Shown here: positions 5,432 through 28,772 of the stretch, one piece after another | Layout of the letters: the number at the start of each line of letters is the position of its first letter | Position numbering within the stretch: the first letter of the stretch is position 1 | Assembly: GCA_003252075.1 (NCBI GenBank) | Contig: QKDO01000111.1 | Location: 1 to 35,837 of the forward strand | Origin: Nitrospirota bacterium | GTDB lineage: Bacteria; Nitrospirota; Thermodesulfovibrionia; Thermodesulfovibrionales; UBA6898 | Direction of reading: 5' to 3' | DNA: 35,837 nucleotides | Translations under genes and position numbers: made by a program | The notes under the pieces: model-generated | Seen by the model: only the letters and a program-made list of their open reading frames with translations | Told to the model about the DNA's origin: nothing | Database searches by the model: none

Positions 5432-6313
5432 CTATTGCACATCACTTGCTATTTTTTTCAGGTACTGCCCATAGCCGTTCTTCTGGTACGGCTTGGCGAG
5501 TTTCAGAAGCTGCGCTTTATCGATATAGCCCAGAGAATAGGCGATCTCTTCGATGCAGGCAATCTTCAGACCCTGGCGTTTCTCCATCGTAGCGATAAAC
5601 TCACCCGCTTCAAGGAGGCTGTCATGCGTTCCCGTATCGAGCCACGCGTACCCCCTTCCCAGAAGTTCAACCCGGAGCTTTCTGTCACGGAGATACTGCC
5701 TGTTTACATCAGTTATCTCAAGCTCTCCCCTCGCCGAGGGCGTCAGGTTTTTTGCGATCTGCACTACCTTGCGGTCATAAAAATAGAGGCCAGTCACCGC
5801 GTAGTTGGATTTCGGTTCTTTGGGCTTTTCCTCTATGGAGAGCACCTTGCCGCTACGGTCGAACTCGACCACACCGTATCTTTCCGGGTCGTTCACATAG
5901 TAACCGAAGACCGTTGCCCCGCCTTTTACTGAAACATCCTTCACCGCCTTTTCCAGCAGTTCAGTAAATCCGTGGCCGTAGAACACATTATCGCCGAGGA
6001 TCAGGCATGCCGGGTCATCACCAATGAACTCCTCTCCCAGCCGGAACGCTTCGGCGAGGCCGTTCGGCCGCGGCTGCTCCTTATAGGAAAATCTCAGGCC
6101 CAGCTGAGAGCCGTCCTTAAAGATATCGCGAAATCTCGGCAGATCCTGCGGTGTCGATATGATGAGGATATCCCTGATCCGCGCCAGCATGAGCACTGAC
6201 AGGGGATAATAAACCATCGGCTTGTCGTAGACCGGCAGCAGCTGTTTGCATACCGACAGGGTGACCGGATAGAGTCGCGTGCCGCTGCCGCCTGCAAGTA
6301 TGATCCCTTTCAT
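5432..6313 (-). CDS. rfbA: Glucose-1-phosphate thymidylyltransferase
   Basis: A 293-residue protein, the usual length of RmlA. It joins dTTP and glucose-1-phosphate to form dTDP-glucose, the first step of dTDP-L-rhamnose synthesis for cell-surface polysaccharide. The N-terminal signature is [13 protein letters not shown] (residues 6-18), followed by the [11 protein letters not shown] segment of sugar nucleotidyltransferases. Further matches are LGDNVFYG, the [25 protein letters not shown] region and [10 protein letters not shown] near the C terminus. AGGGGG lies about nine bases upstream of the ATG. The gene lies 160 bases downstream of rfbC on the same strand, so the two may be cotranscribed. 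rfbB and rfbD, needed to complete the pathway, must be elsewhere. Confidence 0.96.
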
Positions 6314-6472
6314 GAAACTACCCCCTTCTGTAATCTGTTACGATGTTGCATGTTCGAACTCTCAGCATATCAGAAGTCAGCTTTCAGCAGAAAGGCATTC
6401 AGCTAAGAGCAAGGCGCCGACAATACCCGGAGCAATGATTTTCATTCACGTTCGTGAGTTCACGATACCTTC

Positions 6473-11589: not shown

Positions 11590-11609
11590 GACATATGATA
11601 TATGTCATG
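11590..11609 (+). promoter_or_regulatory. FNR/DNR-like dyad upstream of norC
   Basis: TATGAT (11594-11599), four bases, then GTCATG (11604-11609) gives TGAT-N4-GTCA, one change from the Fnr-family core TGAT-N4-ATCA. The same DNA also holds a 7-bp perfect dyad with a 3-base spacer (11590-11596 with 11600-11606). If the FNR-like centre is at -41.5, transcription would start at about 11643, giving a 21-base leader containing the ribosome site of norC. The fitting -10, TAAGGT at 11631-11636, is poor. It could also serve the divergent CBS gene. Confidence 0.5.
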
Positions 11610-11663: not shown

Positions 11664-12335
11664 ATGAGTAACAAAGCAGCGCGGAATCTCTTTATTCTCG
11701 GTAGTCTCTTTTTCTTCGCGATCTTTCTCGGGCTTACCTATGACACCATGGGAAAGCTGGACAAGCGGGCCCCGGAGATCACGGAACAGGTAAACGCGGG
11801 CAAGATGGTCTGGCACAAGTACGACTGCATCGGGTGCCATACGATCCTGGGCAATGGGTCTTACTTTGCGCCAGACCTGACCAAGGCCACTGAACGGAAG
11901 CCAAAGGGATATCTGAAACGGTTCCTCATGGACCCGAAGTCAGCCAACCCAAACGCATCAATGCCGAAACTCGGCATCCGCGACGAGGAGGCTGATGACC
12001 TTATAGCATTCCTTGATTGGAACTCCAAAGTGGACACGAACGGCTGGCCACCGAAACCGATCCTGGCAGCAGCCGGAGGAGTCGCGGGGAAAGAGCTGAC
12101 AGAAGGGCAGAAGTTGTATCAATCCCTCGGCTGCGCTGCATGCCACTTGATCGATGGTATCGGCGGTACGACCGGACCCGAACTTACCACCGTCGGTGCT
12201 CGCAGGGATCGCGCCTGGCTTATAGGCCATTTCAAGAACCCTGAGGAGTATGTCAAGAACTCGGCAATGCCGAAGGTCGAGGCTCCTGAAGCAGATATCG
12301 AAAAACTGGCCGATTACATGATCACACTGAAATAG
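11664..12335 (+). CDS. norC: Nitric oxide reductase cytochrome c subunit, with an added second cytochrome c domain
   Basis: A 223-residue protein. One N-terminal transmembrane anchor (about 8-28) is followed by a NorC-type domain with KYDCIGCHTILGNGSYFAPDL; heme motif CIGCH is at 55-59 and likely axial Met100 lies in ASMPKLGI. After a Pro/Ala-rich linker (about 128-143) there is a second class I cytochrome c domain with CAACH at 157-161 and candidate Met202. Ordinary NorC is about 150 residues with a single heme c, so this is an extended di-heme form. It passes electrons from periplasmic donors to NorB. AAGGAGGTG precedes the ATG, and norB follows 11 bases later. No norD or norQ follows. Confidence 0.9.
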   Translation: MSNKAARNLFILGSLFFFAIFLGLTYDTMGKLDKRAPEITEQVNAGKMVWHKYDCIGCHTILGNGSYFAPDLTKATERKPKGYLKRFLMDPKSANPNASMPKLGIRDEEADDLIAFLDWNSKVDTNGWPPKPILAAAGGVAGKELTEGQKLYQSLGCAACHLIDGIGGTTGPELTTVGARRDRAWLIGHFKNPEEYVKNSAMPKVEAPEADIEKLADYMITLK

Positions 12336-12346
12336 GAGGTGGTGAA

Positions 12347-13738
12347 ATGAGCATAAAATACCAAAGTCAGAAGATCGCCGAATACTTTTATACGTTCGCT
12401 GTTGTGCTGTTCCTGGTCCAGGTGGTCGTGGGCATCATCGCAGCTTTGCAGTTCATCTGGCCGAGCTTCTTCATCCTTAACTTCAATACCATCCGTACCC
12501 TGCATATCAATGCCCTTGTTGTCTGGCTGCTCACCGGCCTGATGGGTGCTACGTACTATGTAGTTCCCGAAGAGTCCGAGACTGAGCTCTGGAGTCTCCC
12601 TCTTGCAAAGCTCCAGTTCTGGGCAACTGTTGTTGCCATTACCGCTGTTGTGCTCGGGTATATCTGGATGGGCCTGAATCCTCAGGCGAACAGCCCTATA
12701 ATGGGCATTACGCCCCTGAACGAGGGCAGGGAATATATCGAGGCACCACGGTGGGCAGATGTCCTCATCGTCATCTCGGTCCTGCTCTTCCTTTTTATCA
12801 ATTTCATGACCATGCTGAAGACGAAGAAATGGACCGGCATACAGGGCACGCTGATAGGCGGTCTCACGGTGCTTGCCCTTATGTATCTTCCGGGGATGTT
12901 TTACACCAAGAGCATGGTGAAGGACCAGTTCTGGTGGTGGTGGGTGGTGCACCTCTGGGTTGAAGGCGCATGGGAGGTCATTGCAGGAGCTCTGCTTGCA
13001 TTCATGCTCATGAAGGTTGTCGGCGCACGGAGAGAGGTCGTTGAAAAATGGATGTATATCGAAGTGGGCTTTGTCATGTTCACCGGCATACTCGGCACGG
13101 GCCATCATTATTACTGGATCGGTACCCCTGGCTACTGGCTCTGGGTCGGCGGCATCTTCAGCTCCCTTGAGCCGCTGCCGCTGCTCTTTATGGTATGGGA
13201 TGCCTTCAGGACAACGCGCGAGGCACGAAATGTTGAAAACAGGGCGGGTCTCTACTATACGGTTGCGCACGCGATATTCAATTTCGTCGGTGCCGGGTTG
13301 TGGGGTGTCATCCATACGCTTCCGCAGATCAACAAGTGGACTCACGGCACGCAGATCACGACAGCACACGGACATCTCGCTTTCTATGGCGCGTATGTGC
13401 TGCTGGTACTGGCTATGATCTATATAACGCTGCCGGCTATACGCGGGGTGAAGGCGTTCAATGCCTCACGTGCATTCCAGTCGTTCTGGTGGATGACGAT
13501 CTCCATGGTCTTCATTGTCCTCACGATAACCGGCGCAGGCATGGTGCAGGTATATATGGAACGGCTGATGGGGCTTGATTATGTTGCGGTCAAGGCGAAC
13601 TACAACATGTGGTTCTGGATCCTGCGGGCAATATTCGGTGTAGGCTTCCTGATCGGTGTCGGTATCTTTGTCATTGACTTCTTCAGGCTGGGCAAAGAAC
13701 CCGCACCTGCAGTTACTGCAGCACCGGAACGGTTATAA
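12347..13738 (+). CDS. norB: Nitric oxide reductase catalytic subunit (cNOR type)
   Basis: A 463-residue heme-copper-oxidase-superfamily protein with twelve transmembrane helices; Pseudomonas NorB is about 466 residues. It reduces two NO to N2O at a heme b3-FeB centre in the inner membrane. Metal ligands can be placed by motif: His53 (LHINALVVW) and His343 for low-spin heme b, His341 for heme b3 (HGHLAFYGAY), and His202 (VVHLWVEG), His253 and His254 (GTGHHYYWIG) for FeB. The NOR-specific glutamates Glu206, Glu210 (WVEGAWE) and Glu275 (SSLEPLP) are all present. Together these indicate a true NO reductase rather than an oxygen reductase, with none of the active-site substitutions of the NO dismutase group. 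AGGAGGTG precedes the ATG. Confidence 0.96.
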   Translation: MSIKYQSQKIAEYFYTFAVVLFLVQVVVGIIAALQFIWPSFFILNFNTIRTLHINALVVWLLTGLMGATYYVVPEESETELWSLPLAKLQFWATVVAITAVVLGYIWMGLNPQANSPIMGITPLNEGREYIEAPRWADVLIVISVLLFLFINFMTMLKTKKWTGIQGTLIGGLTVLALMYLPGMFYTKSMVKDQFWWWWVVHLWVEGAWEVIAGALLAFMLMKVVGARREVVEKWMYIEVGFVMFTGILGTGHHYYWIGTPGYWLWVGGIFSSLEPLPLLFMVWDAFRTTREARNVENRAGLYYTVAHAIFNFVGAGLWGVIHTLPQINKWTHGTQITTAHGHLAFYGAYVLLVLAMIYITLPAIRGVKAFNASRAFQSFWWMTISMVFIVLTITGAGMVQVYMERLMGLDYVAVKANYNMWFWILRAIFGVGFLIGVGIFVIDFFRLGKEPAPAVTAAPERL

Positions 13739-13749
13739 CCATCTGCATG

Positions 13750-13778
13750 ACAGGGGCGGTTGCGACCGCCCCTGTTTT
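13750..13778 (+). terminator. Intrinsic terminator of norCB
   Basis: An 11-bp perfect stem (13750-13760 with 13765-13775) with a TGCG loop is followed by TTTT. It starts 12 bases after the norB stop and ends just before the start chosen for the next gene, so norCB forms its own transcription unit with possible read-through. Confidence 0.9.
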
Positions 13779-13794
13779 CGGGTATCATGGCAAC

Positions 13795-14718
13795 ATGAAG
13801 AAGCTTATGGTTTATTTCTTTTTCTGTGTTCTCCTGACCTCTCCCCATGCTTCAGCTACAACCGATTATGCCCGCCAGACAGGGTTTGAATGCAAGGTCT
13901 GTCATGTTGACGCAATAGGCGGGGGCCCCCTCACAAAGGCAGGAGAACAGTTCATGGATGACATGAAAAGCAAGGGGCTGTACCGTCCCCTCAAGACCTC
14001 CCAGAAGATCGTCCGATTCATCATCGGCTATGTCCATCTCCTTACGGCAATAGCCTGGCTCGGCACAATTCTTTATGTGCATATACTCCTTAAGCCTGCA
14101 TATGCCGCAAAAGGACTGCCAAAAGGAGAACTGGTTCTGGGATGGATGTCCATGATCGTTCTTGCGGTCACCGGAACGCTGCTCAGTATTGCGAGGATCC
14201 CGTCTTGGGGCGTACTGTTGACAACCCGCTTCGGCGTCCTGCTGAGCATCAAGATCGCGCTTTTTCTTATCATGCTGACAACAGCGGTCATCGTGACGCT
14301 TTTTGTCGGGCCGCGGCTGAGGCGGAGCCTCACGGTGAGGAGAACGGCAGAGGGCAGGGCATTGGGCGGAGAAGCGCATATGACGCCTGAAGAGCTTTCC
14401 CATTGCGACGGCAAAGAGGGAAGACCTGCCTATATCGCATATGCAGGAATGATCTATGATGTGACAACGAGCCGGCTCTGGAAGGGCGGCAGCCACGCAC
14501 GAAAACATCTCGCCGGCAATGACCTGACTGCCGCCCTCAAAACCGCTCCTCACGGAGAAGAAAAAGTGATTGCCATGAAACCCGTTGGTGAACTGAGCAC
14601 TACTGCGGAGAAGGCTGAAAAACCGTTTCATGAAAAGCTGTTTTATTTCTTTGCCTATATGAACCTTATCTTCGTCTTCCTTCTTGTCTTTGTCATTGCC
14701 CTGATGCGCTGGTGGTAG
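13795..14718 (+). CDS. Fusion membrane protein: monoheme cytochrome c, CopD-like four-helix domain and cytochrome b5-like domain
   Basis: A 307-residue protein from the ATG at 13795. A frame from 13747 exists, but its extra codons run through the norB terminator and hide the signal peptide. Order of parts: signal peptide (1-21); short cytochrome c segment with CKVCH at 33-37; three to four helices (about 72-172) resembling the CopD/DUF2269 membrane domain, with His81 and His96 as possible heme or metal ligands; a cytochrome b5-like heme/steroid-binding domain (about 196-267) with MTPEELSHCDGKEGRPAYIA and candidate ligands His234, His238 and His253; and a C-terminal helix (282-304). It therefore probably carries c-type and b-type hemes on both faces of a membrane core. 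The combination next to norCB suggests electron delivery or a redox sensor. No close Shine-Dalgarno sequence is visible. Confidence 0.8.
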   Translation: MKKLMVYFFFCVLLTSPHASATTDYARQTGFECKVCHVDAIGGGPLTKAGEQFMDDMKSKGLYRPLKTSQKIVRFIIGYVHLLTAIAWLGTILYVHILLKPAYAAKGLPKGELVLGWMSMIVLAVTGTLLSIARIPSWGVLLTTRFGVLLSIKIALFLIMLTTAVIVTLFVGPRLRRSLTVRRTAEGRALGGEAHMTPEELSHCDGKEGRPAYIAYAGMIYDVTTSRLWKGGSHARKHLAGNDLTAALKTAPHGEEKVIAMKPVGELSTTAEKAEKPFHEKLFYFFAYMNLIFVFLLVFVIALMRWW

Positions 14719-14721
14719 CAC

Positions 14722-14737
14722 TATGATCTGCATCATA
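14722..14737 (+). promoter_or_regulatory. FNR-like site, perfect dyad
   Basis: TATGAT-CTGC-ATCATA is a perfect inverted repeat with the Fnr-family core TGAT-N4-ATCA. Its centre (14729.5) lies 41.5 bases upstream of A14771, and TAACAT (14759-14764) occupies exactly the -12 to -7 position of that start. This is class II activator geometry. The only thing downstream before the next gene is a terminator hairpin, hence the small-RNA proposal. Confidence 0.6.
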
Positions 14738-14770
14738 TTATTTCCGGAAGCCTGCAGGTAACATGGAGTC

Positions 14771-14836
14771 ATAATATTGTTGTCCCCGGCTGCCTGGGAA
14801 CCCCCTCCAACGTAGTACCAGGCAGCCATCTTTTTT
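14771..14836 (+). ncRNA. Candidate FNR-controlled small RNA
   Basis: The predicted transcript of about 66 nt starts 41.5 bases from the centre of the FNR-like dyad at 14722-14737 and ends in an intrinsic terminator. It has a short 5' single strand, then a 10-bp stem with a 20-base loop carrying CCCCCTCC (14801-14808), which is complementary to Shine-Dalgarno-like GGAGGGGG. C-rich loops of this sort are used by RoxS/RsaE-type small RNAs that respond to NO or respiration in Firmicutes. The alternative is that this is simply the 3' end of the preceding mRNA. Proposal by inference only. Confidence 0.3.
14788..14836 (+). terminator. Intrinsic terminator with a large C-rich loop
   Basis: Arms 14788-14797 and 14818-14827 form a perfect 10-bp stem around a 20-base loop. 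After ATC comes TTTTTT (14831-14836). It ends the triple-domain cytochrome transcript and/or the proposed small RNA. The loop is unusually long for a terminator. Confidence 0.8.
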
Positions 14837-14875: not shown

Positions 14876-14918
14876 TATGATGCATATCATGTACAGGAAA
14901 TCAGGGACATGATTCAAT
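14876..14918 (+). promoter_or_regulatory. FNR-like site and -10 of the polyferredoxin gene
   Basis: TATGAT-GCAT-ATCATG (14876-14891) contains the Fnr-family core TGAT-N4-ATCA. Centred at 14883.5, it stands 41.5 bases from position 14925, and TTCAAT (14913-14918) fills the -12 to -7 slot with four of six consensus bases. This class II layout would place the transcript start one base inside the annotated ATG at 14924, which argues for a later start codon (ATG 14948) or a near-leaderless message. Confidence 0.55.
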
Positions 14919-14923
14919 AGGGC

Positions 14924-15874
14924 ATGAGCCTGACAGCCTATAGAAGAATGACGCAGGTGGCCTTTCTCCTCCTCATCTTTCTCATGCCTGTCCTGAATAT
15001 CTTCAGGTATGACACGGCGACAAGGGAACTGATCATATTCGGCCAGGTATGGAGCCTTGGGTTAAATAATGCTTTTTATGCTGATCACAGCCTGAGGGGC
15101 ACGGGTCACGTTGTCCTGCAGTTCTTCCTGAAGGCGATCCTTCCCTGGATCGTTGTCCTTGCGATTTTTCCGCTTCTCGGCGTCTTCACCGGCAGGTTTT
15201 TTTGCGGGTGGTTCTGCCCGGAAGGTACGCTTTTTGAGTTGGCAGACCATTTGACCCTGAAACTAATCGGCAGGAGAAGCCTTTTCGCAAAGAGGCCCAA
15301 TGACCCTGACGCGTCGCACAAAAGAAAGCTGCTCTACGTTCTTGTCGCATTACTGAGCCTTCTGGTACTGCCTCTGCTCGGGGGCATTGCACTCACCGGC
15401 TATCTGGTCGCTCCACGGACCATATGGAGCCAGATCATGAGTTGGAACTTCACCTTCGGTGTCAAGGCGGGCATCATCGGGGTTTCTCTCTACATGTTGA
15501 TCACGTCGATCCTCGTACGGCACTCGCTCTGCAAGTACATATGCGCTGCAGGATTGATGCAGATGCTTTTTGGGTGGGCCAGCCCCATCTCCCTGAGAGT
15601 AAGAATGGATCCGTCTCGTGCTGAAGAATGTACCAACTGCAGGGGATGCGAGAAGGCCTGCTTCATGAACGTGCTTCCGCGCATGAACAAGCGTGACATT
15701 TCCTGCGTGAACTGTGGGGCCTGCGTGGTTGCCTGTCACAGGGAACTGGGAAAAGGCAGGGGACTTTTCAGGTATCAGGCCGGTGAAAAGGCGTCCCTTG
15801 CGGCTTCAGAAAGGGTGAACAGTGAATCCGCCGGGCATTCCTGCTCAAAGCCGGTCCGTCCGGTGCGTACGTAA
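14924..15874 (+). CDS. NapH/NosR/CcoG-type membrane polyferredoxin
   Basis: A 316-residue membrane protein with about five helices. The motif FCGWFCPEG (Cys94, Cys98) and a second CxxxC (Cys203, Cys207) are the paired cytoplasmic-face cysteines of the NapH/NosR C-terminal family. Two four-cysteine clusters follow: Cys236/239/242/246 and Cys261/264/267/271, typical of two [4Fe-4S] clusters. Such proteins move electrons between quinol and periplasmic or cytoplasmic acceptors during denitrification, or assemble metal centres. The flavin domain of full NosR is missing. No Shine-Dalgarno sequence precedes ATG 14924, and the promoter geometry suggests the in-frame ATG at 14948, which still keeps the first helix. 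The exact partner is unknown; the neighbouring NO reductase is a plausible one. Confidence 0.88.
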   Translation: MSLTAYRRMTQVAFLLLIFLMPVLNIFRYDTATRELIIFGQVWSLGLNNAFYADHSLRGTGHVVLQFFLKAILPWIVVLAIFPLLGVFTGRFFCGWFCPEGTLFELADHLTLKLIGRRSLFAKRPNDPDASHKRKLLYVLVALLSLLVLPLLGGIALTGYLVAPRTIWSQIMSWNFTFGVKAGIIGVSLYMLITSILVRHSLCKYICAAGLMQMLFGWASPISLRVRMDPSRAEECTNCRGCEKACFMNVLPRMNKRDISCVNCGACVVACHRELGKGRGLFRYQAGEKASLAASERVNSESAGHSCSKPVRPVRT

Positions 15875-27150: not shown

Positions 27151-27235
27151 GCCGAAGTGGTGGAACTGGTAGACACGCACGTTTGAGGGGCGTGTGGAGA
27201 AATCCATGCGGGTTCGAGTCCCGCCTTCGGCACCA
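27151..27235 (+). tRNA. tRNA-Leu (anticodon GAG)
   Basis: An 85-base tRNA with encoded CCA. The acceptor stem GCCGAAG pairs with CTTCGGC before ACCA. The D arm contains TGGTAGA, the anticodon stem CACGT/GCGTG holds the loop TTGAGGG with anticodon GAG at 27185-27187, a long variable arm follows as in class II tRNAs, and the T arm is GCGGGTTCGAGTCCCGC. GAG reads CUC and CUU leucine codons. Confidence 0.97.
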
Positions 27236-28289: not shown

Positions 28290-28772
28290 CTATAATTTAT
28301 AGCCGATTTTCCTTAGCAATTCTTTTCTGTGCGTTTTATCCTCCGCTGCTTCAACGCCATGGGGGGCAAATCCGTCGATCACGCCCATGACACCCCTTCC
28401 CTGGGAGGACTCTGCAACGACAACTTCAAGAGGGTTGGCAGTCGCGCAGAATATCCTGCAAACCTCGGGGCAGTTCTTTATCTGGTTCAGGACGTTGATG
28501 GGGAAGGCGTTTCTCAGGAGGATGCAGAATACATGGCCTGCCCCCAGTGCCTGCAGGCATGCTGAACAGGCTTCGACCAACTGGCTATCATTTCCTTCGG
28601 TCCTGATAAGGCAGGGACCGGATGCCTCGCTGAAGGCGATGCCGAACTGCGCCTGCGGGACCGTTGTTGCGACGATCTCATAGAGGTCCTCTATGGTCTT
28701 GATGAAATGCGCCTGTCCCAGGATCAGATTGCAGCCGTCCGGTATCGTTATTTTTACCACCTGTAGTTCCAT
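28290..28772 (-). CDS. Adenosine-specific-kinase-like protein (DUF355 / PF04008 type)
   Basis: A 160-residue protein from the ATG at 28772, where AGGGGG lies about seven bases upstream; a longer frame to 28856 has no homology-like content and no ribosome site. It resembles the small family annotated as adenosine-specific kinase: it starts [25 protein letters not shown], has [20 protein letters not shown], an [23 protein letters not shown] core and [16 protein letters not shown]. Biochemical assignment in the family rests on few studies, so substrate is tentative. It is divergent from the DUF4390 gene, and its stop lies 14 bases upstream of the hisI start, so cotranscription with hisI-hisE-hit is likely. 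Confidence 0.88.

Follow-up and report, generated by a model that had tools for sequence, protein, structure and literature searches.

A small RNA of about 66 nt is predicted beside a nitric oxide reductase operon in the window (the whole 35,837-nucleotide stretch that was analysed, from the Nitrospirota genome G000), and comparative sequence analysis supports its placement in a conserved small RNA (sRNA) family of Thermodesulfovibrionales that is absent from Rfam 15 and belongs to a nitrosative-stress-type regulon. The structure, conservation, promoter architecture and regulon membership of the RNA are supported by the same comparisons. A sequence-only reading had proposed an Fnr-type dyad, a -10-like box and a large-looped stem with an intrinsic terminator at this locus, all of which can be read in the DNA, where a U-tract follows the stem; the transcribed unit that it delimited agrees with the promoter and terminator marks, the transcript itself being a prediction. 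The features of the locus are as follows.

11594..11609, + strand: Fnr-type dyad TATGATATATGTCATG before the nor operon, with TAAGGT 21 nt downstream
11664..13738, + strand: norC (11664-12335) and norB (12347-13738), cytochrome-c-type NO reductase
13747..14718, + strand: CopD-like / cytochrome b5-like gene, the immediate upstream neighbour of the RNA
14722..14737, + strand: Fnr/DNR-type dyad TATGATCTGCATCATA (TATGAT-CTGC-ATCATA), 12/12 match; putative operator for transcription of the RNA, placed as in class II promoters
14759..14764, + strand: -10 box TAACAT, 21 nt past the end of the dyad; 6/6 positions kept in G001
14771..14836, + strand: predicted small RNA, ~66 nt, its start placed from the -10 box
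14783..14787, + strand: 5' single-stranded UCCCC motif, open in folds; UYCCC lies directly 5' of the stem in most homologues
14788..14797, + strand: 5' stem arm GGCTGCCTGG with GCUGCC core, from the fold and compensatory changes
14798..14817, + strand: 20-nt loop GAACCCCCTCCAACGTAGTA exposing CCCCCUCC (family consensus CCCCUCC), candidate anti-Shine-Dalgarno seed
14818..14827, + strand: 3' stem arm CCAGGCAGCC with GGCAGC core, from the fold and compensatory changes
14828..14836, + strand: tail AUCUUUUUU (read as ATCTTTTTT; hairpin ended by UCUUUUUU), intrinsic terminator
14876..14891, + strand: second Fnr-type dyad TATGATGCATATCATG, putative operator of the downstream ferredoxin-type gene
14913..14918, + strand: -10 box TTCAAT of the ferredoxin-type gene, with the ATG 5 nt further on
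14924..15874, + strand: NapH/MauN-like ferredoxin-type membrane protein (NCBIfam TIGR02163, E = 7.1e-19, below the cut-off of that model)

The COX1-family protein encoded upstream of the RNA is a cytochrome-c-type NorB (PDB 3o0r, E = 8e-115), which confirms the NO reductase that had been named as a neighbour. The locus carries three Fnr-type dyads, belonging to the nor operon, the RNA and the ferredoxin-type gene, each followed after 21 nt by a -10-like box. The mRNA of the ferredoxin-type gene is probably leaderless, as its ATG lies only 5 nt past the TTCAAT box; this arrangement (14913-14926) recurs in relatives, for example at L054 and L052. The sole Rfam match in the window is a tRNA gene at 27151-27232.

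The hairpin of G000 consists of a 10-bp stem and a 20-nt loop with a minimum free energy of -21.9 kcal/mol (z = -3.55 relative to dinucleotide shuffles), and the loop is fully open. Folding of seven family members leaves the C-rich segments of the RNA open; the CCCCUCC motif of the loop has an unpaired probability of ~0.9 or more in most of them, with locally lower values in G001, and most members carry UYCCC 5' and UCCCC/UCCCCC 3' of the stem. A reading of the opposite strand as a G-rich, CsrB-like RNA was also weighed; the G-U cells (5) and A-C cells (3) of the alignment are too few to separate the strands, and the promoter architecture favours the + strand.

A DNA search of 150 relatives matched the intergenic region only in the near relatives G005 and G001; conservation beyond these two was seen only by covariance model. 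Between G000 and the congeneric G001 the dyad is kept at 14/16 positions, the -10 box at 6/6 and the CCCC motif with the hairpin at 42/45, whereas the spacers have diverged (promoter spacer 11/21, downstream intergenic sequence 14/38; 37-52%). A covariance model built from four sequences recovered more copies in G002, G003, G004, G006, G010, G014, G042, G053, G062, G080 and other genomes; a second model, built from 18 sequences, gave matches at E < 1e-5 in 18 of 176 Thermodesulfovibrionales genomes, belonging to families f1 and f5, in which the hairpin occupies about 20 loci. A phylum-wide covariance search returned no convincing match outside Thermodesulfovibrionales (best E about 0.002). The conservation test suggested by the sequence-only reading thus came out in its favour, with stem and loop found in related genomes by covariance model and the upstream dyad present at 11 of 21 loci.

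Compensatory changes affect 8 of the 12 family stem pairs (36 cells altered on both sides), in numbers higher than in all shuffles. The stem is 94.8% paired, with a covariation score of 0.448 compared with 0.150 +/- 0.025 for shuffled and at most 0.136 for slid alignments; the stem core had served as a manual anchor for aligning the sequences, which biases the slid control partly in its favour. CCCCUCC is present in the loop of 18/21 copies, and the GCUGCC/GGCAGC stem core is nearly invariant among orthologues; paralogues have an altered core and retain the loop. Scans of the window and seven homologous loci matched no bacterial sRNA family of Rfam 15. A pattern scan of genome contigs gave, among the matches listed, mostly GC-rich actinobacterial and other hairpins, and those that look homologous by shape and flanks were Nitrospirota records only. 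Weak matches 3' of an ftsZ-like gene were left out of the family count; these loci (L247, L080 and L248, of G009, G017 and G024) feature a C-rich hairpin with C-runs on both sides, located just 3' of a gene with an FtsZ-like C-terminus.

Of 21 homologous hairpins, 11 are preceded by a dyad matching at least 11/12 positions, and these belong to both families; among 482 control stretches taken from these loci, only 2 have such a dyad. The other 10 of the 21 loci are without a good dyad. In the family a TA-type -10 box almost always follows the dyad at a distance of 21-22 nt, which is the class II arrangement. The FNR/DNR box is TTGAT-N4-ATCAA (PMC1274295), and the dyad of G000, with its half-site TATGAT, is a variant of it. 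Genome-wide, the G000 dyad occurs 39 times with one mismatch allowed, compared with 13 for a reversed control; it precedes norC, the ferredoxin-type gene, a DUF2249 gene and an Hcp-associated DUF1858 gene, as well as genes for cytochrome P460, a multihaem cytochrome of HAO/hydrazine-dehydrogenase-like type and a radical SAM protein, in all of these cases with the spacing seen at the RNA; a cupin gene and a ferredoxin gene also have the dyad in front of them. Since the dyad is shared with norC, cytochrome P460 and other nitrogen-oxide genes, the RNA is considered part of a nitrosative-stress-type CRP/FNR regulon, and the genes in it suggest a response to stress by NO or other nitrogen oxides. 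The genome encodes six CRP/FNR-type domains, two of which were read with an ExxSR recognition helix. The RNA and norB also co-occur (12/18 compared with 37/158 genomes, Fisher p = 3e-4, kinship ignored). The FNR/NO control proposed earlier is supported, at the level of sequence, by class II spacing and a regulon shared with norC. Three C-rich paralogues (L241, L244 and L216, of G023, G089 and G062) lack the Fnr dyad and display TTCACA-type repeats with an 11-bp period before the -10 box; these resemble a Pho box, the third case being imperfect.

The favoured explanation, considered somewhat more probable than all others together, is an independently transcribed sRNA that is activated by an FNR/DNR-type regulator and pairs through C-rich strands with G-rich ribosome sites; its expression, activator, antisense action and targets we infer. 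A CRP/FNR-family activator of the FNR/DNR type, sensing NO or oxygen lack, would bind the dyad, which has class II placement, and drive synthesis of a short RNA; this would begin ~17 nt 5' of the hairpin and stop shortly past it. The CCCCUCC loop presented by the hairpin, and additional C-rich strands that flank it on one side or both, would serve as pairing seeds for unusually G-rich ribosome binding sites of the GGAGGGG type; this pairing would repress translation of mRNAs that are unwanted in NO or anaerobic stress.

Independence of the RNA from its neighbours bears on two other explanations. The hairpin might be the mere 3' end of the nor-copD mRNA, as a terminator or stability hairpin with an incidental dyad; it lies ~70 nt past copD in G000 and makes a good intrinsic terminator, and the C-rich hairpins 3' of the ftsZ-like gene in G009, G017 and G024 have a similar position. 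This is judged very unlikely, as the gene upstream of the RNA is divergently transcribed in G062 and in the G071b copy of G071 and unrelated in G053 (a separate locus) and in G014, where the RNA lies beside cytochrome genes that are nitrite-reductase-like by their sequence; moreover, the loop sequence is conserved, which a terminator does not need, and so are the dyad and -10 box, at a fixed spacing while neighbour genes differ between genomes. Alternatively, the hairpin might be a leader or attenuator of the ferredoxin-type gene, read through from the first dyad. The usual neighbour of the RNA is indeed this gene, which in most genomes follows it directly in the same direction: on its other side the RNA borders norB in G002-G004, G006 and G010, and the CopD-like gene in G000, G005 and G001 and likewise, after a small ORF, in G080. 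However, the ferredoxin-type gene has a dyad and -10 box of its own between the RNA and its ATG and keeps them, directly after the CopD-like gene, in relatives without the RNA; a strong U-tract closes the RNA in G000, and a different gene lies downstream in G053, G014, G018 and G042, so that a leader is regarded as quite improbable. The varied neighbours and the separate dyad of the ferredoxin gene argue against both a mere 3' end and a required leader; together with the covarying hairpin and the class II promoter, the varied neighbours favour the independent transcription that the sequence-only reading had predicted, and the divergent upstream genes in two copies make the refuting case it had named, a hairpin that is just the 3' end of the upstream mRNA, unlikely. 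Spread of the hairpin through these genomes as a repeat or a mobile palindrome of REP or attC-like type is largely refuted and is given almost no weight; the hairpin has a palindromic form and some f5 genomes hold several copies, but G000 contains a single match even at E up to 5, and by DNA search too, the stems diverge through compensatory changes and the promoter context is fixed.

The anti-Shine-Dalgarno (anti-SD) action of the C-rich loop is plausible by analogy. Its seed is both unpaired and conserved, as in anti-SD sRNAs. Pairing of the loop with GGAGGGG is calculated at about -17 to -22 kcal/mol compared with -12.7 for the 16S tail, and pairing with ordinary GGAGG at only -9.5 compared with -12.5 kcal/mol, a typical 16S 3' tail being assumed in both cases; as the loop would beat the 16S tail on the former and lose on the latter, the expected targets are a G-rich subset of ribosome sites. 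An exact search for UGGAGGGG-N3-9-ATG in six RNA-bearing genomes gave no conserved start site, and the sole orthologous pair recovered with UGGAGGGG falls inside a coding frame; the anti-SD step is consequently drawn by analogy with RoxS (PMC4409812) and NfeR1 (PMC10746234). The anti-SD loop of the earlier reading thus stands as a conserved, unpaired C-rich loop and falls short of a conserved target in this exact-site search. The AGGGGG site that it had named before rfbA is present at 6321-6326, 7 nt before the start of this rfbA-like (sugar-nucleotidyltransferase-like) gene (5432-6313, minus strand), and another such site stands before the ORF 28290-28772; the 6-nt matches behind the two targets it had named are weak evidence of targeting, and the rfbA-like gene is a possible weak target.

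It may also be that promoter and RNA are real and that the RNA acts through a bound protein, such as a C-binding regulator or RNA chaperone, and not by pairing with ribosome sites. Near-invariance of the stem core, which mRNA pairing does not need, the single-stranded C-rich patches and the outcome of the six-genome search are in keeping with such a partner, which is nevertheless considered rather unlikely: the paralogues alter the core yet keep the loop, which would fit activity residing in the loop, and the C-rich loops of studied sRNAs target SD regions (PMC4409812, PMC10746234). A broader extension of ribosome-site pairing is doubtful and is offered as speculation: sibling C-rich-loop sRNAs of Thermodesulfovibrionales under different regulators (FNR/NO-type here, others in the paralogues) might form an anti-ribosome-site system that represses SD-led mRNAs, from which leaderless mRNAs of the NO regulon, for example the ferredoxin-type mRNA, escape.

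A literature search for sRNAs of this Nitrospirota group returned no described example; the statement of the sequence-only reading that no such RNA was known agrees with this and with the lack of an Rfam match. FnrS of Enterobacteria is Hfq-dependent and is not known to be built on a C-rich loop, while LhrC of Listeria is a multicopy sRNA family whose UCCC motifs pair with SD regions. LhrC shares multiple copies and C-rich motifs with the Nitrospirota RNA, is unrelated to it in sequence, and is under two-component control in envelope stress (PMC4132741). FnrS is an anaerobically induced member of the FNR regulon (PMC8139620); an FNR-type regulon is common to both RNAs, however the Nitrospirota RNA fails the FnrS Rfam model. 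RoxS/RsaE of Bacillus and Staphylococcus is NO-responsive and has several C-rich regions, and with one of these it blocks ribosome binding at its site on an mRNA (PMC4409812); NO-type regulation and C-rich regions are thus shared, whereas RoxS/RsaE is controlled by ResDE/SrrAB and differs in sequence and structure, and the Nitrospirota RNA does not match its Rfam model. The alpha-r14 or cuckoo RNAs of rhizobia, such as NfeR1, hold a C-rich anti-SD motif unpaired in hairpins whose stems vary (PMC10746234); they have three hairpins with CCUCCUCCC, whereas the Nitrospirota RNA has one hairpin with CCCCUCC and C-rich flanks, and they belong to another phylum and another regulator. DenR of Paracoccus denitrificans bears on NO reductase and denitrification genes, probably via a GntR-type regulator (PMC8139620); both RNAs are linked to NO reductase genes, their similarity having been compared through Rfam alone. 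By analogy, the Nitrospirota RNA would most likely work like RoxS or NfeR1 without homology to either. If it is expressed and acts as proposed, FNR/NO-controlled C-rich sRNAs of unrelated sequence would exist in a third phylum, suggesting convergent evolution of the C-rich sRNA solution and offering a tangible way into the study of post-transcriptional control in uncultured Nitrospirota that cycle nitrogen and sulfur.

The 3' ends of the family members vary. A clear U-tract right or soon after the stem is seen in some members only (G000, G005 and G001), at the place where most relatives have UCCCC/UCCCCC, and lies farther off in G002-G004. At L219, L215, L226 and L218 the 3' C-run of the RNA stops within ~15 nt of the second dyad; a regulator bound there might block the polymerase like a roadblock and so set the end of the RNA.
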